NCBI RefSeq assembly: GCF_018917965.1
Contig: NZ_JAHLPP010000003.1
Span: forward strand, 1 to 64,000
Length of the DNA: 64,000 nt
Source: Pseudoflavonifractor sp. MSJ-37
Lineage (GTDB): Bacteria; Bacillota; Clostridia; Oscillospirales; Oscillospiraceae
Direction: 5' to 3'
Of this stretch, positions 10,804 through 29,330 are shown piece after piece. A program made the position numbers and the translations under genes. How positions within the stretch are numbered: the stretch's first letter is position 1; each line of letters starts with the position of its first letter. The notes beneath the pieces were generated by a model. The model had not been told where the DNA came from. It saw only the letters and a program-made list of their open reading frames with translations, and made no database searches.

Positions 10804-11181
10804 TCATCCCTGCGGGAGCGTCTTTTGGATGTGCTCCTTGAGCTTCTCGAAGGTCTCGGGGCTGACGGCGTGTTCCATGCGGCAGGCGTCGGCCTGTGCG
10901 GTCTCAGGCGCCACGCCCATGCTGATGAGCCAGGCCGTGATGACCCGGTGCCGCTCATAGATGGTGGCGGCGATCTCCGCGCCGGAGGGCGTCAGCTCGA
11001 TGAAGCCCTCCTTGTCCATGGTGATGTATCCGTTCTCCCGGAGCAGGCTCATGGCGCGGCTGACGCTGGGCTTGGAAAAGTTCATGTGATGGACGATATC
11101 GATCGAGCGGCAGACACCGCGCTCCTCCTTGATCATCAAGATCGTCTCCAGGTAGTTTTCCGCTGATTCCTGGATCTTCAT
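10804..11181 (-). CDS. DtxR/MntR-family metal-dependent repressor
   Basis: A 125-residue regulator. The N-terminal winged helix (from YLETILMIKEE to about residue 65) binds DNA, and the second domain carries metal-site residues including His and Glu in ERHRVI, the Cys-containing DACRMEH and the following His. It lacks the SH3-like third domain, as in MntR and short IdeR relatives. With iron or manganese bound, these proteins repress uptake genes. It is divergent from feoA. The start at 11181 is chosen because AGGAGG precedes it; an upstream in-frame extension has no ribosome site. Confidence 0.92.
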   Translation of the reverse strand: MKIQESAENYLETILMIKEERGVCRSIDIVHHMNFSKPSVSRAMSLLRENGYITMDKEGFIELTPSGAEIAATIYERHRVITAWLISMGVAPETAQADACRMEHAVSPETFEKLKEHIQKTLPQG

Positions 11182-11256
11182 AGTGAGAATGCCTCCTGTC
11201 ACTCCCAGGGGCCGGCGGTCCGATCTGCACAATTGCCTCCCTGGTATTTTCCCTCT

Positions 11257-12066: not shown

Positions 12067-14217
12067 ATGTCGATCAAGATCGCGCTTGCCGGCAACCCGA
12101 ACTGCGGCAAGACCACGATGTTCAACGCGCTGACCGGTACTGTCCAGTTCGTGGGCAACTGGCCCGGCGTCACCGTGGAAAAGAAAGAAGGACGGCTGAA
12201 GGGCAATAAGGACGTCATCGTGACGGATCTGCCCGGCATCTACTCTCTGTCCCCCTATACGCTGGAAGAAGTGGTGTCCCGGAACTATCTGCTCACCGAG
12301 CATCCCGACGCCATCCTGGACCTGGTGGACGGCTCCAACATCGAGCGCAACCTGTATCTGACCACGCAGCTCACCGAGATGGGCATCCCTGTGGTCATCG
12401 CCCTGAACATGATCGACGTCGTCCGCAAGAACGGCGACAAGATCGACACCAAGAAGCTGGGCGAGATGCTGGGCTGCGGCGTGGTCGAGACTGCCGCGGT
12501 CAAGGGCGAGGGTTGCCTGGAGGCCGCCGAGGCCGCCGCCAAGCTGGTCAAGAGCGGCCAGAAGACCACCCCCAAGCACGAGTTCTCCGCCAAGGTGGAG
12601 AGCGCTCTGGACCAGATCGCAGACCTGCTCCGCGGCGTGGTCCCTGCGGAGGGCATGCGCTGGTATGCCATCAAGTTCTTCGAGCGTGACGAGAAGGTCA
12701 TGGAGAACTTCAAGCTGGGCGACGATGTGAAGCGCCGCCTGGAGGATGTCATCAAAGCGGTGGAGACTGATCTGGACGACGACAGCGAGTCCATCATCAC
12801 CAACGAGCGCTATGAGTACATCGCCAAGGTGGTGGGCGCCTGTGTCAAGAAGAGCCGCAAGGGCATGTCCACCTCCGACAAGATCGACCAGATCGTGACC
12901 AACCGGATCCTGGCCCTGCCCATCTTTGCGGTGATCATGTGGGCGGTCTACTACATCTCCATCGGCACCATCGGCACCGCGGCCACGGAGTGGACCAACG
13001 ATGTGTTCGTGGCCGAGTGGCTCCAGGGCGGCATCGGTGACTTCCTCGCCAATGTGGGCTGTGCCGACTGGCTCAGCGGCCTGATCGTGGACGGCATCGT
13101 GGGCGGCGTGGGCGCCGTGTTGGGCTTCGTGCCTCAGATGCTGGTCCTGTTCTTCCTGCTGTGCATCCTGGAGGATGTAGGCTATATGGCCCGCGTCGCC
13201 TTCATCATGGACCGGATCTTCCGCCGCTTCGGCCTGTCCGGCAAGAGCTTCATCCCCATGCTGGTGGCCACCGGCTGCGGCGTGCCCGGCATCATGGCCT
13301 CCCGTACCATCGAGCAGGACCGTGACCGGAAGCTCACCGTCATGACCACCGGCTTCATCCCCTGCGGCGCCAAGATGCCCATCATCGGCCTGTTCGCCGG
13401 CGCTCTGTTCGGCGGTTCCGGCACCGTGGCCGTGTCTGCCTACTTCATCGGCGTGGCCGCCGTCATCGTCTCCGGCATCATGCTGAAGAAGACCAAGATC
13501 TTCGCCGGCGATCCCGCTCCCTTCGTCATGGAGCTGCCGGCCTACCACGTCCCCAAGCCCATGAACATCCTGCGGGGCACTTGGGAGCGCGGCTGGTCCT
13601 TCATCAAGCGCGCCGGCACCATCATCCTGCTCTCCTCTATCATCCTGTGGTTCCTGCAGGGCTTCGGCTTCACTGCGGACGGCTTCCAGATGGTCGAGGA
13701 CAACAACAACTCCCTGCTGGCCGCCATCGGCCATGTGATCGCCCCCATCTTCGCTCCGCTCGGCTTCGGCAGCTGGAAGCCCGCTGTGGCTACGATCACC
13801 GGCCTGATCGCCAAGGAGAACGTGGTCGCTACCTTCGGCGTCCTGTACGGCTTTGCTGAGGTCGCCGATGAGGGCAATGAGATCTGGGGCAACATCGCCA
13901 CGGACTTCACCGCGCTCACCGCTTACAGCTATATGATCTTCAACCTGCTGTGCGCTCCCTGCTTCGCCGCGATGGGCGCCATCAAGCGTGAGATGGGCAC
14001 CGCCAAGTGGACTCTGGGCGCCATCGGTTATATGTGTGTCTTCGCCTACGCCGTGTCTCTGATGGTGTATCAGTTCGGTATGCTGGCGCAGGGCCACTTC
14101 GGGATCGGCACCGTGGTCGCGGTCGTGGTCCTGGTGGGCATGCTGTACATGCTCTTCCGGAAGGGCTATCAGGGTGAGGGCAGCCGTCTGCGTGCGGTGG
14201 ATGCCGCCCGCGTCTGA
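12067..14217 (+). CDS. feoB: Ferrous iron transporter FeoB
   Basis: A 716-residue Fe2+ transporter of the cytoplasmic membrane. The N-terminal G domain has G1 (GNPNCGKTT), G3 (DLPGIYSL) and G4 (NMID). A helical guanine-dissociation-inhibitor-like linker follows to about residue 270. The membrane part contains the two Gate motifs, with the conserved Cys in VATGCGVPGIMASRTI and FIPCGAKMPI. Full family length. Codon bias is strong, suggesting high expression under iron limitation. GAGGAGG precedes the start. Confidence 0.97.
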   Translation: MSIKIALAGNPNCGKTTMFNALTGTVQFVGNWPGVTVEKKEGRLKGNKDVIVTDLPGIYSLSPYTLEEVVSRNYLLTEHPDAILDLVDGSNIERNLYLTTQLTEMGIPVVIALNMIDVVRKNGDKIDTKKLGEMLGCGVVETAAVKGEGCLEAAEAAAKLVKSGQKTTPKHEFSAKVESALDQIADLLRGVVPAEGMRWYAIKFFERDEKVMENFKLGDDVKRRLEDVIKAVETDLDDDSESIITNERYEYIAKVVGACVKKSRKGMSTSDKIDQIVTNRILALPIFAVIMWAVYYISIGTIGTAATEWTNDVFVAEWLQGGIGDFLANVGCADWLSGLIVDGIVGGVGAVLGFVPQMLVLFFLLCILEDVGYMARVAFIMDRIFRRFGLSGKSFIPMLVATGCGVPGIMASRTIEQDRDRKLTVMTTGFIPCGAKMPIIGLFAGALFGGSGTVAVSAYFIGVAAVIVSGIMLKKTKIFAGDPAPFVMELPAYHVPKPMNILRGTWERGWSFIKRAGTIILLSSIILWFLQGFGFTADGFQMVEDNNNSLLAAIGHVIAPIFAPLGFGSWKPAVATITGLIAKENVVATFGVLYGFAEVADEGNEIWGNIATDFTALTAYSYMIFNLLCAPCFAAMGAIKREMGTAKWTLGAIGYMCVFAYAVSLMVYQFGMLAQGHFGIGTVVAVVVLVGMLYMLFRKGYQGEGSRLRAVDAARV

Positions 14218-14258: not shown

Positions 14259-14426
14259 ATGCAGTCTATCATCGTGAATGGGATCCTGATCCTGATCATC
14301 GCCGCGCTGGTGGTGCTGGCGGTCCGCTCCCTGCGGAAGCAGAAGAAGTCCGGCGGCTGCGGATGCGGCTGTGAGGGCTGCGGCGGCTGTGGCAGTCAGT
14401 GTCATGAGAGCCATCCCTCCAAATGA
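14259..14426 (+). CDS. FeoB-associated Cys-rich membrane protein
   Basis: A 55-residue protein with one N-terminal transmembrane helix (residues 3-22), a basic stop-transfer segment, and a C-terminal tail with six Cys in a Gly-rich CGCGCEGCGGCG pattern plus a later Cys and His. Such small proteins follow feoB in many Firmicutes and are thought to handle iron or stabilise FeoB. AAAGGAGG precedes the start. Its last 30 codons belong to the 308-bp segment repeated at 24665, where they are fused to foreign sequence. Confidence 0.9.
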   Translation: MQSIIVNGILILIIAALVVLAVRSLRKQKKSGGCGCGCEGCGGCGSQCHESHPSK

Positions 14427-14473
14427 GTTTCCCATAAGAACACTTTTCTCCATTCTCCAAACTCCAAACTGTG

Positions 14474-14501
14474 GAACGGGCGCCGGTAACGGCGCCCGTT
14501 C
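14474..14501 (+). terminator. Hairpin after the feo operon (left repeat copy)
   Basis: GAACGGGCGCC and its perfect complement surround a 6-nt loop. The following T-tract is poor, so termination may be partial. The equivalent at 24806-24833 lies in the right repeat. Confidence 0.55.
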
Positions 14502-14574
14502 TGCGTCTTCTGAGGGTCGCCGCCGACGCGGCGCTGTGCTATCATAAGACCAAACGACTGCCGGAGGTGCTGTC

Positions 14575-14640
14575 ATACTGGACAAGCAGGGCGTGATCGC
14601 CTATTTGAAAGAGGAGGGCCTGGAATTCCGGGTCATCGAA
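14575..14640 (+). pseudogene. 5' fragment of the YbaK-type deacylase gene
   Basis: The first 22 codons of the gene found intact at 24907, interrupted at 14641 by foreign sequence. Its start codon has changed from ATG to ATA, so it is not expressed as such. Confidence 0.9.
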
Positions 14641-14882
14641 TATCAGGGTGGGATAACGATACTCCCACAAAGTCAGTAAGATCAATGGTTTGCGACAGCA
14701 GACGAGCGAATATGTAACGGGAAAAGCTGGATATGGCACGGCTCAGTAGGGCGCGGATACGAAAGATCAGCGCCCTTTTCCTATACTCATCCGAAAAATG
14801 TATCGATCAGGGTGCGAAAACCTCTGTTTTTTCCTCTCAGAGCGCCGCTCAAAAGGCGGCGCCGGATATAGCAGTTTTCCGC

Positions 14883-15065
14883 ATCGAAACGACCAGAGAT
14901 CACACGGTCATGTCCAACTACCACCTGCGGGACAGGTCGCTGTTGCTGAAAGCGAAGGGACTTTTATCTCTCATGCTGTCCCTGCCGGAGAGTTGGGACT
15001 ACACCATGAAGGGGCTTGCCCGTATCTGCAAGGACGGCATCGACCGCATCAGCGGCGGCCTCAAA
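14883..15065 (+). pseudogene. Remnant of an ICE-type replication initiator (N-terminal helix-turn-helix part)
   Basis: About 60 codons encode a segment (HTVMSNYHLRD, then LKAKGLLSLMLSLPESWDYT and KGLARICKDGID) typical of the N-terminus of replication-initiator/DnaD-like proteins in Firmicutes conjugative elements. Similarity ends abruptly after GGLKE. The open frame around it (14733-15251) is unlike any protein I know at either end. The stretch 14641-15247 otherwise holds no recognisable gene. Confidence 0.65.
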
Positions 15066-15182
15066 GAGAATGATTGCCCTCTACTACGATCCGAACATGG
15101 TGTTTTGGCCAGTTTCGGAGGATTTTTTTCAAAAAGCATCGATCTTATCCGCGACTTTTCTCTGAACACTTCGCCGGATGCC

Positions 15183-15211
15183 TTGTGTTTCTTCGAATAT
15201 TCGTATATAAT
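15183..15211 (+). promoter_or_regulatory. Predicted promoter of the HTH/sigma-factor operon
   Basis: TTGTGT and TATAAT are 17 bp apart, about 37 bp before the HTH gene, in a locally A/T-rich stretch. Confidence 0.65.
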
Positions 15212-15247
15212 ATATCGTGTTGAGTATTATCCATGCGGAGGTGCGGG

Positions 15248-15499
15248 ATGAACGGGATCAAGGGCTATATCTCCATTCGGGAGGCGTCTTACCGTTGGGG
15301 CGTGTCAGAGCGGCGGGTCAACCAGTATTGCGCCGAGGGGCGGATCCCCGGCGCGTCCCGGTTCGGGCGTTCATGGGCGATCCCGGAAAACGCGAAAAAG
15401 CCGTCCGACCCGCGCTTTCAGGAACAGCGCGCGATCCCGGCAGGACAAGCACCTGACGGATACCCCTCCGTATTGGAAGCATCCGCAAAAGGGAAGTGA
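15248..15499 (+). CDS. Small helix-turn-helix (excisionase/MerR-like) DNA-binding protein
   Basis: An 83-residue protein. Residues 4-50 form a MerR/excisionase-type winged helix-turn-helix, with the typical stretch SIREASYRWGVSERRVNQYC and the wing RIPGASRFGRSWAIP. Such single-domain proteins are common on Clostridial integrative elements. The start at 15248 follows GGAGGTG. Because it leads the sigma-factor operon it may be the local regulator rather than an excisionase; no integrase is present to partner with it. Confidence 0.8.
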   Translation: MNGIKGYISIREASYRWGVSERRVNQYCAEGRIPGASRFGRSWAIPENAKKPSDPRFQEQRAIPAGQAPDGYPSVLEASAKGK

Positions 15500-15504
15500 A
15501 CGCT

Positions 15505-16053
15505 ATGACCTGCGACGAGGTTTTTTACCGCCAATATTTGAGTGGTGACGACGCGGGGCTGGAGGCCCTGATGAAACAATACGGCGACCCGCTGACCCTG
15601 TATATCGATGGCTATCTGCACGACGTTCACGAGGCGGAGGAGCTGATGCTGGATGTTTTCGCCTATCTGTTCACCAAAAAGCCCCGCATCCGGGACGGAG
15701 GCTTCAAGGCATATCTCTATAAGGCGGCGCGGCACATGGCGCTGCGCCATAAGAGCAAGCGGAAGCCCTTGTTCGGCCTCGATGCGCTGACCGACGAGCC
15801 GGACAGACGGCTGCTGGCGGAGGAGGTCATCCAGACGGAGGAGCGAAACCGCGTCCTGCATTTCTGCATGGGCGAAATGAACCCGGACTATCGGGAGGTT
15901 TTATATCTCACTTATTTTGAAGGCATGAGCTACGCGCAGGCGGCGGAGGTCACGGGGAAAACGGTGAAGCAGATCACCAACATGGTGTATCGCGGAAAAG
16001 AAAGCCTGCGAAGGCTCTTGGAACGGGAGGGGATCACAAATGCGGAGTCATGA
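15505..16053 (+). CDS. ECF-like sigma-70 family sigma factor
   Basis: A 182-residue sigma factor with region 2 at about residues 15-85 (DVHEAEELMLDVFAYLF, then YLYKAARHMALRHKSK) and region 4 at about 115-175 (PDYREVLYLTYFEGMSYAQ followed by the recognition helix). Regions 1 and 3 are absent, as in ECF factors. GGGAA precedes the ATG at 15505; a GTG at 15496 is possible. It overlaps the next gene, a two-TM protein, by 14 bases, the usual sigma/anti-sigma arrangement. Its likely target is the giant surface protein gene downstream. Confidence 0.88.
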   Translation: MTCDEVFYRQYLSGDDAGLEALMKQYGDPLTLYIDGYLHDVHEAEELMLDVFAYLFTKKPRIRDGGFKAYLYKAARHMALRHKSKRKPLFGLDALTDEPDRRLLAEEVIQTEERNRVLHFCMGEMNPDYREVLYLTYFEGMSYAQAAEVTGKTVKQITNMVYRGKESLRRLLEREGITNAES

Positions 16054-16402
16054 GGAACGTGTTGCGGAGACGAAGCGGCGCATCGCCAAAATGGAACGGG
16101 AGGATCGGCTACGGCACAATACGATCACCATGGCTTCCGCTGTGGCGGCGTGCCTTGCACTGCTCATCGGCGCGTCCCTCGCCATGCCCGGCATTGCCGC
16201 AAACATCCAGACAGGGGATCATTCCGACTTTGAAACGGCGGCAAGCATCTTTCACAGCGGCGCTGCTTTGGGATACATCGTCATCGGGCTGCTGGCGTTT
16301 TTACTCGGCGTTTGCGTGACCGTTCTGTGCTTCCGACTGCGGCAGATGAGCCGCGAGGACGGGCAGGACAGGGAAAACGAGGATGTGCATGGAGCTGATT
16401 GA
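16040..16402 (+). CDS. Two-TM membrane protein, candidate anti-sigma factor
   Basis: A 120-residue protein with a charged cytoplasmic N-terminus (residues 1-27), a first membrane helix at about 30-52, an extracellular loop, a second helix at about 75-98 ending in LCFRLR, and an acidic tail. It overlaps the sigma gene, which suggests it binds that factor. The same two-helix layout with the LCFRLR ending occurs in the protein at 17801, so they are paralogues. No named anti-sigma motif is recognised; the role is inference from position. Confidence 0.65.
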   Translation: MRSHEERVAETKRRIAKMEREDRLRHNTITMASAVAACLALLIGASLAMPGIAANIQTGDHSDFETAASIFHSGAALGYIVIGLLAFLLGVCVTVLCFRLRQMSREDGQDRENEDVHGAD

Positions 16403-17015
16403 GAACCTGCTGCAATTACTGACCACGTTCGTCGGTGTGCTGCTTTCGGGTATCGCCTACCGCAAAAGCCACCGGCAGGCGTATTTTTTGCTGCTGTGCT
16501 TCTATGGCTGCTTTGCCCTCGGCGCGCTCTACTGGACGCTGTATCTGCTGCTGTTCGATACCACGCCCAGGGTCTTTTATGTGTCGGAGTTCGGCTGGGT
16601 GGCCAGCGTGGTCTTTTTACGCATTTTGCAGGCCACGCTCACCAGTCAGGACGAGCGCAGCTTTCGCTGCCGCAGGGCGTGGCTTGCGCCTGCGTTCGGC
16701 GTGCCGCTGCTGGCGTTCTACTGCACATTCGGGGACATCCTCTCCAACCTGATCTGGTGCGGCATGATGATATGGCTCTCCTTCTGCGCCATCCGGGGGC
16801 TGGTCTACGCCGATGGGCAGACGGGCGCGGCGCGGAATATGCGGCGCTTCCACATCGGCGTGCTGTGCTTTGCGTTCGCGGAGTACCTGCTCTGGACGGT
16901 GGGCTGCTTCTGGCCGGATACCTCACCGGCAAGCCCGACCTTCTGGTGCGATATGCTGCTGACACTCGCCATTCTGGGGCTGCTGCCCGCCACGAGAAAG
17001 GCGGTGGCTGCATGA
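16389..17015 (+). CDS. Polytopic membrane protein of unknown function
   Basis: A 208-residue protein with about seven predicted membrane helices and almost no soluble part. It overlaps the genes on both sides (14 bases upstream, 4 bases downstream), so it belongs to the same translationally coupled unit as the sigma factor and the PrsW-type protease. I do not recognise the family. A sensor role for the membrane signalling unit is possible but unproven. The ATG at 16389 is chosen because GAGG lies six bases upstream; 16383 is an alternative. Confidence 0.7.
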   Translation: MELIENLLQLLTTFVGVLLSGIAYRKSHRQAYFLLLCFYGCFALGALYWTLYLLLFDTTPRVFYVSEFGWVASVVFLRILQATLTSQDERSFRCRRAWLAPAFGVPLLAFYCTFGDILSNLIWCGMMIWLSFCAIRGLVYADGQTGAARNMRRFHIGVLCFAFAEYLLWTVGCFWPDTSPASPTFWCDMLLTLAILGLLPATRKAVAA

Positions 17016-17641
17016 CCTACATCGAGAATATTTTTATCTGCATGGTGTCCCCGCTGCTGGTGGCCGCTTTGTGCATGGGCAGGCGGCAGCTCCGCTTCTT
17101 CCTGTTCTGCATTGCCGGGATGGGGGTGTGCCTGCTCTCGGCCTATATCAACACCTTCCTCGCGGCGGTATGTCAGGCGGACGCCCTTGCCGCCACGGCG
17201 GAGATCGCGCCGGTGGTGGAGGAAATGATGAAGCTGTTGCCGCTGGTGCTCTATCTTCTGGTATTCGAGCCGGAGGGGGATAAGATCAAGCCCGCCGCCA
17301 TCACGGTCGCCCTCGCCTTCGCCACCTTCGAAAATGTGTGCTATCTCGTCCAGAACGGAGCGGAACGCTTCTCCTTTATCTTCTTCCGTGGCTTCGGCAC
17401 GGGAGCCATGCACGTCCTCTGCGGCCTGATCGTGGGCGGTGGCCTTGCATACACATGGCATCGGACGTGGCTGAAAATCGCAGGCACCTGCGGCCTGCTG
17501 GGCGCAGCCATCACCCTCCACGCTATCTATAATCTGCTCATCGCCCACGGCGGCGCGGCGCAGTACATCGCCTACGCCCTGCCGGTGCTGCTGGTGGCGG
17601 CGGGAAAATGGTCCGCGTTCAGATTATCGCGGAGGAAATAA
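17012..17641 (+). CDS. PrsW-type intramembrane protease
   Basis: A 209-residue polytopic protein with the PrsW/CPBP-like active-site pattern: VVEEMMK (two Glu and Lys), FENVCYL, RGFGTGAMHVLCG (His) and HAIYNLL (His, Asn), each in or beside a membrane helix. PrsW in Bacillus subtilis and Clostridioides difficile cuts anti-sigma factors to free ECF sigma factors. Encoded in the same operon as an ECF-like sigma factor and a membrane anti-sigma candidate, the same role is the natural inference here. A terminator follows. Confidence 0.85.
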   Translation: MTYIENIFICMVSPLLVAALCMGRRQLRFFLFCIAGMGVCLLSAYINTFLAAVCQADALAATAEIAPVVEEMMKLLPLVLYLLVFEPEGDKIKPAAITVALAFATFENVCYLVQNGAERFSFIFFRGFGTGAMHVLCGLIVGGGLAYTWHRTWLKIAGTCGLLGAAITLHAIYNLLIAHGGAAQYIAYALPVLLVAAGKWSAFRLSRRK

Positions 17642-17657
17642 CCGAATATCCACTCCC

Positions 17658-17692
17658 TGAGAGCTGCTTTTTGGCGGCTCTCAAATTTTTTT
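17658..17692 (+). terminator. Terminator of the sigma-factor/PrsW operon
   Basis: TGAGAGCTGC pairs with GCGGCTCTCA (one G-U) around a T-rich loop and is followed by TTTTTTT. Confidence 0.88.
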
Positions 17693-17800
17693 CAAAAATT
17701 TTGCGTTTTGGGTGAGAGTTTTTTCGATTTTTTGTACCTATATAAGTGAAGGGGTTTTTAAGCCGCATTTCAAAAAATCCAGAGAGGAGGTTCAAACGAA

Positions 17801-18154
17801 ATGTACGATACCGCAAGACGGGTCGCACTCGTCAAGCAGCGGGTGCGGGAAAACACCCGCCGAAAACGGCGGCGCGGCATCTATGGGCTGAGTGCCGCGT
17901 GTATGCTGCTGTTCGCGGTGCTGATGCAGGCGGTGGGCACGGCCGTCGGGCCGGGGCAGACCGCCGCATGGGGCGTGTTCGGCGCAATGCTGCTGCGGGA
18001 GGACGCGGGCGGCTATGTGCTGGTGGGCGTTGTATCCTTTACGGCAGCGGCAGTCATCACCGCGCTGTGCTTCCGGCTCAGAAACAGGGAAAATCAGAAA
18101 AAAGGCAGGGCAGACAAGCCTGACCCGCAAGAACAGGAGGGAAAAACGACATGA
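17801..18154 (+). CDS. Two-TM membrane protein, paralogue of the candidate anti-sigma factor
   Basis: A 117-residue protein with a very basic N-terminus (KQRVRENTRRKRRR), a membrane helix at about 28-48, a short outer loop, a second helix at about 66-90 ending in ALCFRLR, and a polar tail. Helix layout and the LCFRLR end match the protein at 16040. GAGAGGAGG precedes the start. It overlaps the giant surface-protein gene by four bases, so the two are co-translated; it may help display or sense that protein. Confidence 0.65.
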   Translation: MYDTARRVALVKQRVRENTRRKRRRGIYGLSAACMLLFAVLMQAVGTAVGPGQTAAWGVFGAMLLREDAGGYVLVGVVSFTAAAVITALCFRLRNRENQKKGRADKPDPQEQEGKTT

Positions 18155-21100
18155 AGAAACGAATCCTTAGCATCCTGCTCATGTTCTGCATGGTGATCGG
18201 CCTTTTGCCGACGACCGCCTTTGCCAACAGTGACGCCGCAAAAGCCATTCAGCTCGGTGCAAGTGGGATCAGCGGTTATGACAGCACAAACGGCAGCTAT
18301 GATTATATTCATTTTGGCACATGGAATAATAGTCCCATCAAATGGCGCGTGCTGGATACAAAAACCAATATGCCCAATGCTCAGGAGGGCGACGGATTTT
18401 TCCTGCTCTCCGATGCGCTGCTTGGGACAGGGGAATATGGCGGCGTAGAATTTGACTATACGACCCCATATACCAACGACTGGAAGGGCAGCCGTGGGCA
18501 GGACTGGTGTAACGGCTTTTACAGCAGAAACTTCAGCACTACGGAGCAAAAAGCTGTTTTTGCAACCAGCAAAAGTGATGATCCATACATTGATGGGTAC
18601 TTTATTGGTTCTGAAAACATCCTGAATGGCGACAAGGTGTTTTTCCTCTCGGCAGAGGAAGTGGGGAATGCAGCCTACGGATTTACCGATGACGATGCGC
18701 GTATCGCCAATTATGGTGATAGTGCGGGCGGGTGGTGGCTTCGTTCTCCTCACCGAGACTATGACGCTGCGGGCATGGTCAATGCTTCCGGTGATGTGGG
18801 CGCTTACTGGGTAAACGATACCAACGCAGCCCGTCCTGCGTTCAACTTGAAGCCGGACCCTGTCCTCCTTGTTTCCGCCGCCGTTGGCGGCAAAGGTGCT
18901 GTTGACGGAATTTTCAAAATCCCGGAATACAGCGGAAACGAATGGAAATTGACACTTTTAGACGATACCCGCACTTTTAAGGTAACGGAAACCGCCGCAG
19001 TAGGGAAACCAGGCGGTACTGTTACGCTGAATTTTTCCGGGGCGAGAACGGGACGAAATGAATACATTTCCGTGATCATCGAGGGCGAAAGCGGCGTGAC
19101 CCACTATGGAAGGATCATGAAGCCCACTGCCACAGACAGGCAGCTCAGCTTTACGATACCGTATGACCTTGCTAGCGGAAATTATAATCTCTATGTGTTC
19201 TCCGAGCAGTATAACGGCGATCACAAGACTGACTACGCCAGTAGATTTCAGAAGGTAGTGTTGACGGTAGAGGAGGCGGCCAACGAGCAGTTTGCCCTTA
19301 CACCCGGCGGCACCTATTACTTTGACCTCTCCGGCGCGGGCATTCCCGGCGCGGCGAACGGCAGCCTGCCGGATGCATCGCTGCACTATGTTCCCTTTAC
19401 CTACACCGGGATAGTGGATGCATACACGCTCACATCGGAGATGGCGACCACCGAGGAGTATGCACGGCAGAACGAATATGCCCACAGCCTATTTGTGGCG
19501 GATCATGTCGTAACGCATACGGTAAATTGGAATGCCTTAAACGATGCGAGCCTGATTTTCGGCAAAGGCTACGCCGCCGGCGGTGTGGAATATACTCTGC
19601 GCGCACCGTCCGTGGGAAGTGATGTTACAGCAGGCTCGGATGATTTAGAATGCGGCACGCCCCAAAGCAACGAATGGGACAGGATGCTGGACAAGAACAA
19701 CGGATATATCAAAAACTGGAGCGGGATGTCTTCGTGGGGACAAGATACTCCGAGCACCGAGGCATCGAGCCGTGCGGTTCGCGGGTGCGATTCGGCTCGC
19801 GGCTGGCACAATCGCATTGCTGCGACCTCCGACTCGAGCGTCGGCTTCCGCCCTGTCCTTGAAGTCCTGGACCCGGACACGCTGGGCTCCGACGGGCTGA
19901 AAGCTGTTGTCCTTGACCTTGGCGGCGGCAAGCTTGGGAATCGCTCCGAGAATATTCAAATCATTGTGAAAAGCGGCGAGAGCTTTACCGCGCCCGGCGG
20001 CGACGGTCTGACTCACCCGGACGGGAATACCGGCAGTTACTTTATGTGGCTTGGCAGCGATGGCGAGCTCTACGATTCGGGCGACAGTGTTCCAGCGGTC
20101 GTAAACAAGCTCACGGCGCGGTTTGCGCCCATAGAGCAGTTCAGCCTCGTTCCTGGCGGCACGTATTACTTTGACCTCTCCGGTACAGGCATCCGCGGCA
20201 CGGCGCACAGCAGACTGCCGGACAAAACATTGCATTATGTTCCCTTTACCTATGCCGGGACAGTGGACGCCTACAAGCTCACATCAACGATGGCAACTAC
20301 TGCGGCGTATGCGCAGCAGAACAAATATGCCCACAGCCTGTTTGTGGCGGATTATGCCATAACGCATACGGTAAGCTGGGAGAATCTGAATTCCGCAGGT
20401 CTGATTTTCGGAAAAGGCTACACCTCCGGCGGCGTGGAATATACGCTGCGTGCGCCGTCCGTGGGAAGTAGTGGCGTAGGCTCGAACTATTCCCAACACG
20501 GCATACCACAAAGCAACGAATGGGACAAGATGCTGGACAAGGACAACGGATATATCAAAAACTTTAGACAGATATATTCGTTTGGACAAGATACTACGAG
20601 CAGTTCGGAGTCGGGCCGTGCAAGCCGAGGGTACAATGCGCCCCGCATCTGGCACCGCACCGTTGCTACGCGTTCCAACGAGGCCCTCGGTTTCCGCCCT
20701 GTCCTTGAAGTCCTGAACCCGGACACGCTGGGTTCTGACGGGCTGAAAGTCGTTGTCCTTGACCTTGGCGGCGGCACATTGGGCAGCGGCAGATTGAGCG
20801 TCAGCTCGGATATCCAGATCATCGTAAAAAACGGCGAGAGCTTTACCGCACCTGCCTCCAATGGTCTGACCCGTCCCGACGGAAATACAGGCAGCTACTT
20901 TATGTGGCGCGGCAGCGACGGTGCGCTCTACGCACCGGGTGACAGCGTCCCGGCAAACGTGAACAAGCTGACGGCGCAGTTTGATTCCATAGAGCAGTTC
21001 ACCCTCGTTCCCGGCGGCACATATTGGTTTGACCTCTCCGGTGCGGGTATTCCCGGCACAGCGAACGGCAGCCTGCCGGATGCGTCGCTGCACTATGTTC

Positions 21101-24100
21101 CCTTTACCTACGCCGGGACAGTGGACGCCTACGCGCTCACGTCGGAGATGGCAACCACCGATGAGTATGCAGAGAAGCACAAATATCCCCACAGCCTGTT
21201 TGTAGCGGACTTTGCCGTAACGCATACGATAAGCTGGAAGGATTTGAATTCCGCAGGTCTGATTTTTGGAAAAAACTACACTGCCGACAGCGTGGAATAT
21301 ACAATGCGCGTGCCGTCAGCAGGACGTTCTTATAGAGGCTCTGGCGATTCTGTACGCGGCAACCCTCAAAGCAACGAATGGGACAAGATACTGGACAAAT
21401 ATGACGGATATATCAGAAACTGTAATGCGACAGATTCGTGGGGACAGGATGTTGCGCACAATTGGGCGCAGGGCCGTGCAATGCGTGGGTACAGCTCGGT
21501 TCGCAATTGGAATTTCACCAATGCTTCGGACTCCGGATCGCACCTCGGTTTCCGCCCCATCCTTGAAGTTCTGAACCCTGATACACTGAATCCTAATGGG
21601 CTGAAAGCCGTTACCCTCGACCTTGGCGGCGGGAAGCTGGGTAACAGCTCCGAGGATATTCAAATCATTGTGAAAAGCGGCAAGAGCTTTACCGCACCTG
21701 CGTCCGACGGTCTGACCCGCGCGGACGGAGATACAGGCAGCTACTTTATGTGGCGTGGCAGCAACGGTAAGCTCTACGCTCCGTACGATAACGTACCGGC
21801 GGATGTGACCAAGCTGACGGCACAGTTTGCTCCCAGCAGCCATAGCGTGACCATCAACACGGACACCCTGCCCGGCGGCAAGGTGGGCGAGGCGTACAGC
21901 CAGACCCTGATTGCCACCGGCATCGAGCCTATCACATGGAGCATTATCAGTGGCGAGCTGCCCAAGGACCTGACGCTGAAAGAAACCACCGGCGAGATCA
22001 GCGGCACGCCTACCACAGCGGGAACCTCCACCTTCACCGTCAAGGCTACCAACAGCGCGGGCAGCAATACGAAGGAGCTGTCTATTACGATAGCTAAAGC
22101 CGCGCCCACCGAGCATACCGTCACCGTGACCACAGAGGGCGGCGGAACGGCTTCCGCCGATCCCTCCACCGCTACCGCCGGTACGACGATCACCCTGACC
22201 CCAACGCCCGACGAGGGATACCACTTCAAGAAGTGGCAGGTCATGCGCGGCAATGTGACTATCAAGGACGATAAGTTCACCATGCCGGACAGCGAGGTGG
22301 AGATCAAGGCAATCTTCGAGGAGGACGCGCCTTCCGCAGAGGATCTGGTAGACCCTGTGATCCGGATCATTCCGAGCAAGCACGGCGGCTATCCTACGCA
22401 GGGCGGCATACGGACGGCGGCGGATTTCTTCAAGCCGGGGGAGGCGCCCAAGGGTGCAAAGATCACGGCCATCACACCGCCCGCGTCTCCATCCATTCTG
22501 GACAGCATCAGCGTAGATGATGACGGGCTTCTGAGCTATGCTAAAAAAAATGAGGCGGATGCCGAGCGGCTGAAAACAGACGTCTACACCGTCACCATCA
22601 CCAGCGATGACTACGCGCCCATTACCGCTCCGCTGACCGTGCGCCAGTATCTCTTTGCAGGCTTTAGAGCAGCACTCGATGTACGCGACTGGGTCTACGG
22701 AGATACCCGCACTTACAAGTGGAAGGCGATAAATCCCGGCGAAAACGGCACCTGGTCGGCGATCATGCAAGAGCAGGGGATCTTTGAAATTTACGAGGAA
22801 ACCGTCGATACGACCAGCGAGCCGGGAGTGTCCCACTATACGACGAAGGTCAGGGCGATCAAGGCGGGCCAGACCTTTATCGATATTCTCTATGTATCCG
22901 ATACCACGGCGTCGTGGTCGCCATGGACCCATAGCACTGTTTTCGCCGGTGGCAAGGTCGTTGTGCGAGGTCTCACCGTGACGGCAGGCAGTGCGACCAT
23001 CACCAAGGGCGATGCGCTGCCAACAGACCTTGTGAGTTGTACCGGCCTGCTGGATAGCGAAGGACGCACGGATGACCGAGATACAGTGCTGGACAACGCC
23101 CTTTCCTATCGGATGCTTAACGTAAACAACGAGGAAATCACGGCGGAAGCGGCACGCAATACCCCCGGAACCTACACCGTTGTTCCCGCTGCCACCCTCA
23201 AATCCGGCTGGGACGAGCGGTATTCGCTCAACAGGGTCAACGGTACGCTAACGGTGGAGGATAAGGTCATTGAGCAGTTTACCATCACCTATAATCTGGC
23301 CGGCGGCACTGCGGAGGGCAATCCCGGCACCTACACCATCGAGACAGGGGCTTTCACCCTCATGAATCCTACCAAATCCGGCTATACCTTCACCGGCTGG
23401 AGCGGCACGGGTCTGACGGGTGAGAACAACCTGACCGTCACCATCCCAACGGGCAGCACTGGCAACCGAATCTATACGGCACACTGGCGTTATAATGGCA
23501 GCGGCCATTCTTACAGTTACTACACCATCAAGGCAACTGCCGGGACTGGCGGCTCCATTTCTCCCTCCGGCAATGTCAGCGTCCGCGAGGGCCGGGATCA
23601 GACCTTCACCATCACCCCGGATAAGGGCTATGCTGTCGCCAACGTCAAGATCGACAGCAAGAGCATCGGCGCGGTGAAGTCCTACACCTTTGAGAATGTC
23701 CGCAGGACCCATACCATCGAGGTCATCTTTATGAAAGCCAACGGCGCCCCCCAGACCGGCGTGTTTGTGGATGTGGCGACCGGCAGTTATTATGAGGACG
23801 CTGTGGATTGGGCGGTGGAAAACGGTATCACCATGGGAACGGATGATACCCACTTCTCCCCAGACGGCATCTGCACCCGCGCGCAGGCCGTGACCTTCCT
23901 GTGGCGTGCCGCTGGCAGTCCCGAACCCGAAACCCGCGCCATGCCCTTCGCCGACGTCCCAGTGGGCAGCTACTACTACGATGCTGTGCTGTGGGCGGTA
24001 GAAAACGGCATCACCAAGGGCACCAGCGACACCACGTTCAGCCCGAACGCCACCTGCTCCCGCGCCCAGATCGTCGTGTTCCTGTGGCGTTCCGAGAAGT

Positions 24101-24282
24101 CCCCGGCAGCGGGTACCGCCAATCCCTTTGCCGATGTGAAGTCCACCGCCTACTATGCTGATGCGGTACTGTGGGCGGTCAGGGAGGATATCACCATGGG
24201 GACCACCAGCACGACATTCAGCCCCGACGCGGATTGCACCAGAGCGCAGATCGTGACCTTCCTCTGGCGCTGCAAGAAGTGA
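18151..24282 (+). CDS. Giant secreted SLH-domain surface protein with three long internal repeats
   Basis: A 2043-residue secreted protein. Residues 1-25 are a signal peptide ending TAFA. Residues about 45-235 form a DUF6273-type domain (GGWWLRSPHRDYDAAG). Three repeats of about 280-286 residues start near 379, 662 and 948, each opening with EQF-x-L-x-PGGTY-x-FDLSG and holding a GFRP-x-LEVL core. A putative Ig domain (near 1230-1315), InlB/Listeria-Bacteroides-type beta repeats (near 1315 and 1710-1860) and three S-layer homology domains (1869-2043) follow. The SLH domains would hold it on the cell wall. A role in adhesion is inferred. It is coupled to the small membrane protein upstream and may be the target of the island's sigma factor. 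Confidence 0.93.
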   Translation: MKKRILSILLMFCMVIGLLPTTAFANSDAAKAIQLGASGISGYDSTNGSYDYIHFGTWNNSPIKWRVLDTKTNMPNAQEGDGFFLLSDALLGTGEYGGVEFDYTTPYTNDWKGSRGQDWCNGFYSRNFSTTEQKAVFATSKSDDPYIDGYFIGSENILNGDKVFFLSAEEVGNAAYGFTDDDARIANYGDSAGGWWLRSPHRDYDAAGMVNASGDVGAYWVNDTNAARPAFNLKPDPVLLVSAAVGGKGAVDGIFKIPEYSGNEWKLTLLDDTRTFKVTETAAVGKPGGTVTLNFSGARTGRNEYISVIIEGESGVTHYGRIMKPTATDRQLSFTIPYDLASGNYNLYVFSEQYNGDHKTDYASRFQKVVLTVEEAANEQFALTPGGTYYFDLSGAGIPGAANGSLPDASLHYVPFTYTGIVDAYTLTSEMATTEEYARQNEYAHSLFVADHVVTHTVNWNALNDASLIFGKGYAAGGVEYTLRAPSVGSDVTAGSDDLECGTPQSNEWDRMLDKNNGYIKNWSGMSSWGQDTPSTEASSRAVRGCDSARGWHNRIAATSDSSVGFRPVLEVLDPDTLGSDGLKAVVLDLGGGKLGNRSENIQIIVKSGESFTAPGGDGLTHPDGNTGSYFMWLGSDGELYDSGDSVPAVVNKLTARFAPIEQFSLVPGGTYYFDLSGTGIRGTAHSRLPDKTLHYVPFTYAGTVDAYKLTSTMATTAAYAQQNKYAHSLFVADYAITHTVSWENLNSAGLIFGKGYTSGGVEYTLRAPSVGSSGVGSNYSQHGIPQSNEWDKMLDKDNGYIKNFRQIYSFGQDTTSSSESGRASRGYNAPRIWHRTVATRSNEALGFRPVLEVLNPDTLGSDGLKVVVLDLGGGTLGSGRLSVSSDIQIIVKNGESFTAPASNGLTRPDGNTGSYFMWRGSDGALYAPGDSVPANVNKLTAQFDSIEQFTLVPGGTYWFDLSGAGIPGTANGSLPDASLHYVPFTYAGTVDAYALTSEMATTDEYAEKHKYPHSLFVADFAVTHTISWKDLNSAGLIFGKNYTADSVEYTMRVPSAGRSYRGSGDSVRGNPQSNEWDKILDKYDGYIRNCNATDSWGQDVAHNWAQGRAMRGYSSVRNWNFTNASDSGSHLGFRPILEVLNPDTLNPNGLKAVTLDLGGGKLGNSSEDIQIIVKSGKSFTAPASDGLTRADGDTGSYFMWRGSNGKLYAPYDNVPADVTKLTAQFAPSSHSVTINTDTLPGGKVGEAYSQTLIATGIEPITWSIISGELPKDLTLKETTGEISGTPTTAGTSTFTVKATNSAGSNTKELSITIAKAAPTEHTVTVTTEGGGTASADPSTATAGTTITLTPTPDEGYHFKKWQVMRGNVTIKDDKFTMPDSEVEIKAIFEEDAPSAEDLVDPVIRIIPSKHGGYPTQGGIRTAADFFKPGEAPKGAKITAITPPASPSILDSISVDDDGLLSYAKKNEADAERLKTDVYTVTITSDDYAPITAPLTVRQYLFAGFRAALDVRDWVYGDTRTYKWKAINPGENGTWSAIMQEQGIFEIYEETVDTTSEPGVSHYTTKVRAIKAGQTFIDILYVSDTTASWSPWTHSTVFAGGKVVVRGLTVTAGSATITKGDALPTDLVSCTGLLDSEGRTDDRDTVLDNALSYRMLNVNNEEITAEAARNTPGTYTVVPAATLKSGWDERYSLNRVNGTLTVEDKVIEQFTITYNLAGGTAEGNPGTYTIETGAFTLMNPTKSGYTFTGWSGTGLTGENNLTVTIPTGSTGNRIYTAHWRYNGSGHSYSYYTIKATAGTGGSISPSGNVSVREGRDQTFTITPDKGYAVANVKIDSKSIGAVKSYTFENVRRTHTIEVIFMKANGAPQTGVFVDVATGSYYEDAVDWAVENGITMGTDDTHFSPDGICTRAQAVTFLWRAAGSPEPETRAMPFADVPVGSYYYDAVLWAVENGITKGTSDTTFSPNATCSRAQIVVFLWRSEKSPAAGTANPFADVKSTAYYADAVLWAVREDITMGTTSTTFSPDADCTRAQIVTFLWRCKK
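19285..21833 (+). repeat. Three tandem intragenic repeats of 849, 858 and about 842 bp
   Basis: Units start at 19285, 20134 and 20992, each at GAGCAGTT. They remain clearly alignable at DNA level with scattered substitutions and small indels, most variable in a window of about 150 bp before the GFRP-encoding stretch. Confidence 0.92.
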
Positions 24283-24339
24283 CCGGCTGACATATGGTCA
24301 AGCAGCAACGCCGCTGACATGACCACATAAGCGAACATC

Positions 24340-24390
24340 GGACAGCGCAATGGCCAGGCTTTTCGCCTTGACGTTGCGCTGTCCTCTTTT
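24340..24390 (+). terminator. Terminator of the giant surface-protein gene
   Basis: GGACAGCGCAA at 24340-24350 pairs with TTGCGCTGTCC at 24374-24384 and is followed by TCTTTT. Confidence 0.8.
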
Positions 24391-24459
24391 CGCCGCAGGA
24401 AACAAATCGATGACATTTTGAACTGCGCCGCTATCCCAGCGCGGCAAGGAGACAGCATT

Positions 24460-24758
24460 ATGAAAAGGATCACAAAAATCATTCGTCCGATCATCTCTGC
24501 ATGGCCGTCCTTCTCTTTGCCATGACCACGACAGTCATGGGTTGCTATCAGAAGGAGACGGAGCCTATCGACATTCCCGGCAGAACGCCTTCCGGCACAT
24601 CTGCGCCTCAGCCGTCAGCGGCTTCCGCGGGCGAAGTCATCCCCTCGGTGGACAGGCAGAGTTGGCGGAAGCAGAAGAAGTCCGGCGGCTGCGGATGCGG
24701 CTGTGAGGGCTGCGGCGGCTGTGGCAGTCAGTGTCATGAGAGCCATCCCTCCAAATGA
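24460..24758 (+). pseudogene. Frameshifted lipoprotein fused to the Cys-rich Feo tail
   Basis: AAGGAG precedes an ATG at 24460 that opens a signal-peptide-like start (MKRITKIIRPIIS) but hits a stop after 21 codons. A second frame from 24501 continues with a hydrophobic stretch, the lipobox VMGC and a Pro/Ser-rich segment, then runs in frame across the repeat boundary at 24665 into the last 30 codons of the Cys-rich Feo protein. So a one-base frameshift separates signal peptide and body, and the body is a chimera. Probably non-functional unless the frame is restored. Confidence 0.7.
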
Positions 24759-24972
24759 GTTTCCCATAAGAACACGTTTCTCCATTCTCCAAACTCCAAA
24801 CTGTGGAACGGGCGCCGGCGACGGCGCCCGTTCTGCATCCTCTGAGGGTTGCCGCCGACGCGGCGCTGTGCTATCATAAGACCAAACGACTGCCGGAGGT
24901 GCTGTCATGCTGGACAAGCAGGGCGTGATCGCCTATTTGAAAGAGGAGGGCCTGGAATTCCGGGTCATCGAA
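24665..24972 (+). repeat. Right 308-bp direct repeat bounding the island
   Basis: Copy of 14333-14640 with 7 substitutions and no gaps. It carries a truncated Cys-rich Feo gene, the intergenic hairpin and the intact start of the YbaK-type gene. Exact offset between copies is 10,332 bp. Confidence 0.97.
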
Positions 24973-25401
24973 CATACCGCCATGTATACCATGGAGGAGC
25001 TGGACGCCAGCGGGCTCTTCCCCAAGGGCCTGATCGCCAAGAACCTGTTCCTGCGCAACGCCCAGGGCAACCGCCATTTCCTGGTGGTGCTGGAGGGGAG
25101 CAAGCAGGTGGACCTGAAGGCCCTGCGGACGGCTCTGGGGACCTCCCGGCTGTCCTTCGCCTCAGCGGAGCGGCTGTGGGAGCATCTGGCCCTGAAGCCG
25201 GGCTCTGTAGGCCCCTTCGGCGTCCTCAACAACGAGGCCAAAGATGTGGAGGTCTGGTTCGACCGGGACCTGGCGGGCCGGGACGTGGGCTTCCATCCCA
25301 ACGACAATACGGCCACCGTGGTCCTGCCCTGCGAGAAGGCGGCGGAGCTGGTACGGAAGCATGGCAACCCCTTCTCTTATCTGGACTTGCCTCAGATGTG
25401 A
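24907..25401 (+). CDS. YbaK/ProX-type aminoacyl-tRNA deacylase
   Basis: A 164-residue free-standing editing domain related to the insertion domain of prolyl-tRNA synthetase (YbaK/ProXp group). These enzymes hydrolyse mischarged tRNAPro, such as Ala- or Cys-tRNAPro. The GLIAKNLFLRNAQG and KQVDLKALRTALG stretches, GSVGPFGVLNN and HPNDNTATV are characteristic, with Lys45-type and GPFG residues forming the active pocket. GGAGG precedes the start. The first 66 bases lie in the right 308-bp repeat, so a broken copy also exists at 14575. Confidence 0.9.
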   Translation: MLDKQGVIAYLKEEGLEFRVIEHTAMYTMEELDASGLFPKGLIAKNLFLRNAQGNRHFLVVLEGSKQVDLKALRTALGTSRLSFASAERLWEHLALKPGSVGPFGVLNNEAKDVEVWFDRDLAGRDVGFHPNDNTATVVLPCEKAAELVRKHGNPFSYLDLPQM

Positions 25402-25491: not shown

Positions 25492-25926
25492 TCAGGGCCG
25501 GGGACCGGGGCAGTCCAGACGGTCCCGGCGGGCCCGGGCGGCCTGGTCCCGCGTCCGCTCCCGGAGGGCGGGGAGGATCTCCTTGAGCCGCTGGAAGCTC
25601 TCGGCGCTGATCACGTGTTCGATCTCGCAGGCGTCCTGAGCGGCGGTCTCCGGAGAGATCCCCAGGAGCTGGAGCATCTCCCGCAGGACACAGTGGCGGT
25701 CATAAACGTCCTTGGCGACATCCAGACCCAGGTCGGTGAGATGGAGGCCCTTCTCCGGATCCACCCGAAGGAAGCCTCCCTTTTGCAGAAGAGCCACCGC
25801 AGAGCTGACGCTGGCGCGGGAATAGCCGAAATGGTCGGCCACGTCCACCGAGCGGACATGGCCCTTCTCCCGGGAGAGGACCAGGATGGCCTCCAGATAA
25901 TCCTCACCGGATTTGTGCAGAGTCAA
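25492..25926 (-). CDS. DtxR/MntR-family metal-dependent repressor (second copy)
   Basis: A 144-residue two-domain DtxR/MntR relative with an N-terminal winged helix (HKSGEDYLEAILVLSRE, FGYSRASVSSAVALLQK) and a metal-binding/dimer domain with DRHCVL and DACEIEHVIS. It resembles the regulator at 10804 but has a longer, Arg-rich C-terminus. A GTTAG-N6-CTAAC palindrome lies in its own promoter region, so it is probably autoregulated by metal. Which of the two regulators controls feo cannot be told from sequence. Confidence 0.92.
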   Translation of the reverse strand: MTLHKSGEDYLEAILVLSREKGHVRSVDVADHFGYSRASVSSAVALLQKGGFLRVDPEKGLHLTDLGLDVAKDVYDRHCVLREMLQLLGISPETAAQDACEIEHVISAESFQRLKEILPALRERTRDQAARARRDRLDCPGPRP

Positions 25927-26030: not shown

Positions 26031-26126
26031 GTGCTAACTGAAAGAAAAAGGGAGCTTCCAGTCCTTGCGCGGGAGGGGAAAAGAGGATATCATGATAGAG
26101 ATAGGAACGAGGAAGGGGAGATATCC

Positions 26127-29100: not shown

Positions 29101-29330
29101 GGAAGGGCGTCCTGCCGCTGGAGTCGGAGCGCCATCCTGTGGACGAGGCGGAGGAGCGGCGGCTTTTCTATGTGGGCATGACCCGGGCCCGGGACGAGCT
29201 GCTCCTCCTCTGGTCCGGACAGGAGCCGTCCCCCTTCCTGGCGGAACTACCCGACCTGCTGGTGGAACGGGGAGAGGCCGGTCTCCGTCGGAAGGAGCGC
29301 CCCAGCGCCCAGCTCAGTCTCTTTTCCTGA
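26127..29330 (+). CDS. EndoQ-like PHP nuclease fused to a UvrD/PcrA-type helicase
   Basis: A 1067-residue fusion. Residues 1-270 are a PHP metallo-phosphoesterase domain with DLHIHSRYS, GTGDFTHP and SHSDAHSP metal ligands, followed by a zinc ribbon (NCHQ then CPVCGK) at about 270-300, the order found in endonuclease Q, which nicks DNA 5' of deaminated bases. From about 455 a superfamily-1 helicase begins: Walker A AGPGTGKT near 477, DEFQD near 646, QSIYAFRGA, and TLHAAKGLEF near 972. Likely role: excision of uracil or hypoxanthine lesions with coupled unwinding. The start at 26127 follows GGAAGGGGAG; a 32-codon upstream extension is rejected. Confidence 0.88.
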   Translation: MLIADLHIHSRYSRATSPDCVPAALDFWARRKGIQIVGTGDFTHPAWRAELAESLVPAEEGLYTLREDLIRPGAIIRGEAPRFVVSGEISSIYKKNGKVRKVHNLIVLPGLEAAEVLSRRLEAIGNIHSDGRPILGLDCRDLLEITLEAAPDAIFIPAHIWTPHFSLFGAFSGFDTIEECFEDLTPHIYALETGLSSDPPMNWRVSALDRYHLVSHSDAHSPAKLGREADLLDIPLSYPALEKALRTGRGLKGTVEFFPEEGKYHYDGHRNCHQTLSPQEAEALGGLCPVCGKRLTTGVLHRVEQLADRPEGYVRPRAPKFERLAPLPEVLSATLGGGPDCKKNQRRYEELLEKLGPEFYILREAPIEDISAAAGPCVAEGIRRLRAGKAQWHPGSDGAYGEMTLLTPQEKEAYSGQVSLFGCDAPKVRKKTSTRAVRPVEKLQKTEEAAGLLSPPELDPDQTAAVRNGDRAVAVIAGPGTGKTRTLVARILWLLEQGERPSEIAAVTFTNKAAEELRERLEASLGDRRAMSGMTIGTFHSIALRLLSRERPVRLVGDYEALELAGQVLRALGMTGTPQRLLQAVSRRKNGLPVEDPELEAACAFYDSRLAERGMADYDDLLVDCLAQWEGRSRPDARKFRHLLVDEFQDCDPMQYRLVLAWNRLGRSLFVIGDPDQSIYAFRGADAACFRRLEADFPDLRTVRLRQDYRSTPEIVGCALASIGHNGGGPRELHAVRRSGAKVRVLHAESDKSEAIFTAKEIARMVGGVDMLEAQKRGTEQRLWSFSEIAVCTRTRHQLQVLERCLRREGIPCVVAGRDDFLNDDMVRGALCFFRLLLDPEDILSLEVCLRLVWSVPADLIRAVAGTWGLAEGDAAQRVKAVETAYAQIAVLRPWLELAGFFCQQVDWERPWRLLERWAESAGCTASEPLEHLRGLAAFYRTMPDLLEGVVLGSEGDIRRKSGDYESGAVTLMTLHAAKGLEFPVVFLCGIRKGVLPLESERHPVDEAEERRLFYVGMTRARDELLLLWSGQEPSPFLAELPDLLVERGEAGLRRKERPSAQLSLFS

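Follow-up and report, generated by a model that had tools for sequence, protein, structure and literature searches.

The window analyzed here comprises 64,000 nucleotides of Pseudoflavonifractor sp. MSJ-37 (contig NZ_JAHLPP010000003.1, positions 1 to 64,000 of the forward strand) and harbors, between the feo genes and ybaK, a 10.3-kb island flanked by two direct repeats, in which we recognized the remnant of an integrative and conjugative element (ICE) and its cargo (table 1). The repeats span 308 bp each at a spacing of 10,332 bp, begin with GCGGAAGC (14333 and 24665), end with CGAA (14640 and 24972) and differ by seven substitutions and no gaps, with no extension of the similarity on either side; these coordinates and counts, as well as the presence of parts of two host genes in each copy, had been reported in a preliminary description of the window and were confirmed. 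The 2.58-Mb genome contains only these two full copies (E 7e-150, which excludes chance), the third match being a 28-base minus-strand match inside the left copy (14474-14501). Each copy consists of the last 94 bp of feoS (the gene after feoB, not feoB itself), an intergenic terminator, and the first 66 bp of ybaK. In the left copy feoS is intact and ybaK stops 22 codons in, and the right copy starts within feoS and runs on into a complete ybaK. Six of the seven differences fall within 14444-14518, at 24776, 24819-24820, 24837, 24840, and 24850 in the coordinates of the right copy, and the seventh is the third base of the ybaK start codon (14577), which reads ATA in the left copy and ATG in the right one. 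Read directly from the sequence, one doublet difference in the loop of the terminator hairpin swaps GTAA for GCGA, both of which are loops of the GNRA type.

The genome is a draft assembly of 18 contigs, a circumstance that would favor an origin of the repeats in an assembly or strain-mixture artefact. We regard such an artefact as very improbable: the longest identical run between the copies is 111 bp, shorter than a common short read, so that a collapsed assembly is not needed as an explanation, the completeness is 99.98 and the contamination 0.18, and both edges of the island make biological sense, one as an ICE terminus and the other as a microhomology.

The left edge was located by comparison with 400 genomes of the family, 68 of which (the window's genome counted) match the 600 bases that follow the left repeat. 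The best of the other matches begin at 14639 (contig G040:C28, 93%) and at 14636 (contig G258:C67, 91%), where the repeat ends at 14640. The 30-base sequence at this point, AATATCAGGGTGGGATAACGATACTCCCAC, was detected in three of the 400 genomes, the window's included, and all three copies were exact although up to three mismatches were allowed. Outside it lie three unrelated flanks, namely ybaK in the window and two different serine-recombinase genes in G258:C67 and G040:C28, and a boundary common to three unrelated surroundings indicates the terminus of an element. A 24-base part of it also occurs in two species-genome records, those of Oscillibacter valericigenes An907 and Oscillospiraceae isolate POC01, which are most likely the same insertions as those of G258:C67 and G040:C28. 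No copy of the terminus was found in viral contigs, the 17 plasmid records with a match resembled the DUF6017 segment only (69-74%), and neither end of the island has a second copy in the genome. In the two relatives, different serine-recombinase genes are cut at the same position by the same terminus (L163, G258:C67:49973-50410; L162, G040:C28:34166-35365), the Resolvase match starting at profile position 48 of 145 in both; this suggests that the ICE with this terminus targets recombinase genes of other elements.

The nature of the element became apparent from complete copies of 31-32 kb in G295, G212, and G040:C5, which were delimited by comparing all three. In the left 22 kb, the G295 copy shares 95-96% identity with the two others, and in the right 4.7-6.6 kb 92-96%; as the flanks are unrelated, the limits of the element can be set. 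Its genes are ordered as a DUF6017 gene, a VirD4-type coupling protein, a PrgI/TraG protein, NlpC/P60, a topoisomerase, a relaxase (MobA/VirD2), a surface protein, a sortase, and a large serine recombinase that adjoins the right end; the VirD4-type, PrgI/TraG, relaxase, and recombinase genes, recognized with Pfam, identify the element as an ICE. The left end of the window's island is homologous to the left end of these complete ICEs, sharing the block AAAGTCAGTAA[A/G]ATCAATG and the DUF6017 gene, of which the window holds a remnant with the start codon ATA versus ATG in the relatives. The closest known elements are the Tn1549-like ICEs of Firmicutes, which have a DUF6017 gene and a large serine recombinase. 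With these, G295 shares the DUF6017 gene at the left end, VirD4, PrgI/TraG, the relaxase, and the serine recombinase; support for the Tn1549 label comes from the presence of the DUF6017 gene in Enterococcus records, 8 of 14 Enterococcus plasmid entries and all 3 others naming the matching gene DUF6017. The window differs in that no more of the ICE remains than its left end, the cargo, and the first part of the sortase gene, as well as in its terminus, a variant found in three of the 400 genomes. A related end repeat, CTCCTAATAAGAAAACAT, was seen within 13 stretches only at both ends of the complete G040:C5 ICE, and a search of the same stretches for further or inverted copies of the window's terminus returned the two known copies only.

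The transfer region of the ICE is absent from the window: two sites that adjoin each other near 15058-15082 are separated by 21 kb in G295 (located on the cargo side by a 50-base match). When ten ICE proteins (seven from G295 and three from G357, recombinases and relaxase among them) were compared with the window, only the remnants of the DUF6017 and sortase genes were detected, and no integrase or transposase was found by Pfam among the open reading frames (ORFs) of 14641-24664 taken as genes, in agreement with the preliminary description. As neither a recombinase nor transfer genes of its own were found in this interval, the island represents an ICE remnant and not a functional ICE. In G258:C67, the ICE left end likewise adjoins the same cargo operon; the two are joined at a different base, however, and other sequence was kept, so that the losses of the transfer region in the window and in G258:C67 look independent. 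The G258:C67 stretch at about 36.9-50.1 kb (L170, L163) is apparently an independently shortened ICE copy, in which the sigma/PrsW operon and then a giant ORF come immediately after the left end. Elsewhere in the window's genome, other VirD4-like conjugation genes, some of them in pieces, were noticed at G000:C3:231372-243144 and G000:C1:429919-470197, which are further ICEs or remnants.

The right edge is of a different kind. The last 382 bases of the island have 90% matches in G040:C5, G357:C1, and G258:C51, with any match at all in 10 of the 400 genomes including the window's, and the similarity to the ICE reaches 24672 and then ends inside the sortase gene. At the junction, the ICE reads GAGTTGGCGGAAGCCAGAG, feoS reads TCCCTGCGGAAGCAGAAG, and the window reads GAGTTGGCGGAAGCAGAAG, the join lying inside the shared 8-bp sequence; at least eight shared bases occurred at random ICE/host junctions in a fraction of 0.0002 of 300,000 draws. 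Because the ICE similarity stops at an 8-base identity common to the ICE and feoS, the right edge is an illegitimate join inside the ICE. No attR or ICE right end was found at this edge. In G295, G212, G040:C5, and G357, serine recombinases are located to the right of the sortase, that is, in the part missing here, which accounts for the lack of a recombinase at this locus. This missing part was not found elsewhere in the genome with an 8.4-kb G357 query, whose three genome hits were the window remnant, a 38-base match, and one of 67% over the initial 574 bases of the query. A self-contained element with its own ends was considered and rejected, as the relatives place the right edge inside a gene that is, by its Pfam match, a sortase gene and not one of the DUF4366/CD1107 type. 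At 24501-24758, the right feoS copy is fused in frame to the sortase remnant in an 85-aa ORF, probably by chance.

These two edges confirm that the insert is foreign and that the host locus was duplicated at its ends, as had been proposed, and they lead us to reject the very long target duplication offered in the same description as one of two explanations. Transposition with a 308-bp target-site duplication would place host DNA as direct repeats on both sides, as is seen, and nevertheless we consider it most improbable, because only the boundary of the left repeat is a terminus, the right edge is internal to an ICE gene and carries a microhomology, no transposase was found by Pfam, and the complete ICE relatives contradict it.

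A simple insertion of the ICE into ybaK predicts the order feoS, ybaK fragment, ICE, and rest of ybaK. In the window, however, the cut ICE is followed by the end of feoS, the intergenic region, and the whole of ybaK, which implies that a second, intact copy of the locus took part. We thus propose, with high confidence, a core reading in which an ICE resided in ybaK and was joined by microhomology to an intact feoS-ybaK copy. An ICE of the kind with the DUF6017 gene, VirD4-PrgI-relaxase, and serine recombinase would have entered ybaK at codon 22 with the left terminus toward feoS, and a single crossover at GCGGAAGC, between the ICE sortase gene and feoS, would have joined it to the second copy. 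By this crossover the ICE would have lost its right part, including the recombinase and the right end, ybaK would have become complete again, and a duplication of 308 bp would have remained. Separate deletions would have removed the transfer region and part of the left end, and the sigma/PrsW operon and the giant surface protein would have been kept as immobilised cargo. Directly visible in the window are the terminus of the ICE, a right edge internal to it, the microhomology, and the lack of transfer and recombinase genes; the order of events and the source of the intact copy are inferred. Our confidence concerns this core alone, to which a circle or a sister chromosome would be other routes.

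Another strain, a sister chromosome, and a circle give the same sequence as sources of the intact copy, and the most likely of them is allelic DNA from another strain, joined in a manner resembling homology-facilitated illegitimate recombination (HFIR). As outlined in an excerpt of one study (PMC3240628), HFIR combines one microhomology join, mostly of 3-10 bp, with homology on the other side. The window junction, at 8 bp, is similar. The HFIR described in that excerpt was observed in laboratory transformation and its insertions usually come with a deletion of resident DNA, whereas the window displays a duplication and its history is read from one sequence. In an essay (PMC4795794, likewise an excerpt), chromosomal curing was proposed, in which HFIR with DNA free of the element removes mobility genes and so helps the host to keep cargo functions. 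The window resembles this process in that mobility genes were lost, the cargo was kept, and the target gene was regained, and departs from it in that curing was partial, 10 kb of the element having been retained. It is accordingly possible, and we suggest it tentatively, that the island is a natural fossil of partial chromosomal curing, in which element-free DNA from another strain repaired the ICE-interrupted gene by an HFIR-type join, severed the recombinase from the ICE, and so fixed its sigma/PrsW-controlled surface-protein cargo in place.

The sister-chromosome or tandem-duplication route would consist of an unequal microhomology exchange between ICE-bearing and ICE-free sisters soon after entry of the element, or, as a variant, of ICE insertion into one of two tandem copies of the locus already present, with no other strain involved. 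Reasoning from the structure, it yields the same product and needs no imported DNA; yet the copies would start identical, and the differences between them number six in 75 bp of intergenic sequence versus one in 160 bp of coding sequence, a weak objection that leaves this route rather unlikely in our view. The clustering suggests, without amounting to proof, that two alleles diverged under selection for the coding sequence at both ends. A Campbell route appears slightly less likely still. Here, a circle holding the feoS end, the ybaK fragment, and the left part of the ICE would form in an ICE-bearing cell by recombination at GCGGAAGC between feoS and the sortase gene, and would integrate into an intact locus within the 308 bp. 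The resulting sequence would be identical, and this route comes closest to the preliminary idea of a Campbell integration of a circle that had captured a host segment, except that the insert would then be a piece of an ICE rather than an element with a circle of its own. According to the excerpt of PMC3240628, duplications of 109-950 bp were present in 14 sequenced clones after a plasmid unable to replicate had recombined by single crossover through shortened homology in E. coli conjugation experiments, which lends this route a precedent. It requires, however, two separate steps and a free circle of 10.3 kb for which neither replication nor transfer functions are known. Recombination of the RecA type between the repeats, a further element of the preliminary description, is possible in principle.

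Comparison with related genomes only partly bears on the host locus before the insertion. The match of FeoB was present in 10 of 10 genomes of the genus (the best FeoB being 78% identical), and the 491-bp feoS-ybaK region gave short matches only, in five of the nine other genus genomes. Neither YbaK (tblastn) nor the island was found in six same-genus feo loci (L098-L103), so that the comparison with relatives proposed in the preliminary description is half answered, by loci that lack the island but also lack a ybaK match. In G001, the locus consists of feoB, feoS, an alcohol dehydrogenase, a flavodoxin, and PHP/UvrD (names after feoB assigned by eye), and G005 has other genes after feoS (by eye). 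The distribution of YbaK is patchy, with 17 of 150 family genomes at E 1e-20, the window's included, and a pattern search of genome contigs for YbaK returned none. Two DtxR/MntR-like regulator genes (by eye) flank the feo-ybaK locus, at 10804-11184 and 25492-25926, both on the minus strand; the corresponding gene of G001 is 78% identical to the left regulator and 49% to the right one. Further to the right, at 26031-29330, lies a 1099-aa ORF that appears to combine PHP-like and UvrD-like helicase domains (by eye), with a 77% identical ORF in G001.

Several observations weigh against the proposed history. No same-species genome was found, and neither an empty site nor ybaK interrupted by the full ICE was observed. 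As a target, the ybaK site is only weakly similar to the recombinase genes: scores as high as its own occur at 1.1-1.4% of all positions and at 10-19% of positions with the same TT core, and at three of the four widths it scores below zero. The matrix behind these scores comprises nine sequences, from 12 recombinase loci of which ten were scanned (L197, which is interrupted, and L206 were left out) and nine had the motif (not L202). The genome has five matches to other serine recombinases, at most 42% identical to that of G040, and because of these a recombinase acting on the window terminus may exist elsewhere in the genome. The right terminus of the window's ICE subtype and the left end of the G357 ICE were not identified in the comparisons. 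The clustering of the repeat differences, on which the reading of the copies as alleles from two strains depends, is weak as evidence (P 0.018 for six of seven within 75 bp; P 0.058 for coding versus intergenic positions). Finally, HFIR is rare, occurs mostly in naturally competent species, and is usually accompanied by a deletion, as far as the excerpt of PMC3240628 describes it.

Table 1. Features of the feoB-ybaK region, in coordinates of the window (ECF, extracytoplasmic function; HTH, helix-turn-helix; SLH, S-layer homology).
Feature	Position	Strand	Matches and remarks
feoB	12067-14217		
feoS, FeoB-associated Cys-rich membrane protein gene, 55 aa	14259..14426	+	PF12669 6.5e-13; after feoB
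Left repeat copy	14333..14640	+	
ybaK 5′ fragment, 22 codons	14575..14640	+	Start ATA; cut by ICE left end
ICE left terminus (attL-like)	14639..14668	+	Identical 30 bases in G258:C67 and G040:C28
ICE left-end region with DUF6017/HTH_36 gene remnant	14641..15116	+	~90 bp upstream and 3′ part missing
Small HTH protein, first gene of cargo operon	15233..15499	+	HTH_17 and excisionase-like matches, both below curated cut-off
ECF-type sigma factor	15496..16053	+	PF08281 1.7e-13; TIGR02937 2.7e-19
120-aa small membrane protein, candidate anti-sigma factor	16040..16402	+	No family above cut-off; conserved in orthologous operons
210-aa predicted membrane protein	16383..17015	+	
PrsW-family intramembrane protease	17012..17641	+	PF13367 1.6e-17
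117-aa small membrane protein, similar to the 120-aa one	17801..18154	+	Cross-matches
2043-aa surface protein	18151..24282	+	DUF6273; Ig-like and InlB-like repeats; three C-terminal SLH domains
ICE sortase gene 5′ remnant	24460..24672	+	Frame changes near 24495; cut at right repeat
8-bp microhomology GCGGAAGC, ICE sortase gene/feoS	24665..24672	+	Same as 14333-14340
Right repeat copy	24665..24972	+	
Intact ybaK, aminoacyl-tRNA editing domain	24907..25401	+	PF04073 (tRNA_edit) 6.5e-27

The cargo between the two ICE remnants forms a sigma/PrsW operon that precedes the giant SLH surface protein, whose gene contains three internal repeats of about 850 bp. All cargo reading frames are open. In comparison with G357, the ratio of non-synonymous to synonymous changes was 0.11 for the sigma factor, 0.11 for the 210-aa protein, and 0.13 for PrsW, with 0.31 and 0.25 for the two small membrane proteins, and for the small HTH protein it was 0.63 versus G357 and 0.20 versus G258:C67 over 180 sites; these ratios, obtained for the six proteins encoded ahead of the surface protein, reflect change along both lineages and give no date for when mobility was lost. 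The same operon is found in G357 (identities of 92% for the sigma factor and 93% for PrsW), where a relaxase-like ORF (by eye) lies on one side and a sortase with three serine recombinases on the other, and the small HTH gene occupies the same position in G357 and G258. A match to the sigma gene at E 1e-12 or better was detected in 27 of 200 family genomes, the window's included, and of 13 other such loci examined (32 being listed), 10 have PrsW adjacent to the sigma gene. The ten ICE proteins gave no hit at 14 loci (L104-L117, 6.6 to 19.5 kb), 13 of which are sigma loci, and carriage of the operon by an ICE is hence not the rule; it adjoins ICE genes in G357, but not, within the stretch searched, in G126. 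The giant ORFs after the operon differ between genomes, with 2043 aa in the window and, as mechanical ORFs (L158, L163, L104), 2247 aa in G357, its SLH part lying in a further ORF, 2463 aa in G258:C67, and 1955 aa in G126. As to a defence function, none of seven proteins had a PADLOC match.

The regulated proteolysis of SigW-RsiW-PrsW is known from Bacillus subtilis, and the window is similar in that genes for small membrane proteins accompany those of an ECF sigma factor and PrsW. It differs in that its candidate anti-sigma proteins match no family above cut-off and in that the operon precedes a giant SLH protein; the term "S-layer homology" occurred in none of the SigW-RsiW-PrsW literature matches listed. 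By analogy, the small membrane proteins may be anti-sigma factors that PrsW destroys on a surface signal, which would switch on the surface protein.

The locus is not named in the literature matches listed from a small search, and, within that search, we know of no case of partial curing read as plainly from a genome. The kind of element and the processes are known; the case is new, and its scar is unusually readable. If the proposed history is true, the locus preserves, at the level of single bases, how an element lost its mobility as a disrupted gene was recovered and the cargo retained. Its signature, a slightly diverged long direct repeat with an element terminus at one edge and an internal microhomology at the other, is searchable at scale. 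In addition, the locus draws attention to a module that combines an ECF sigma factor, PrsW, and a giant SLH protein in Oscillibacter relatives and that resides on an ICE in G357 at least.

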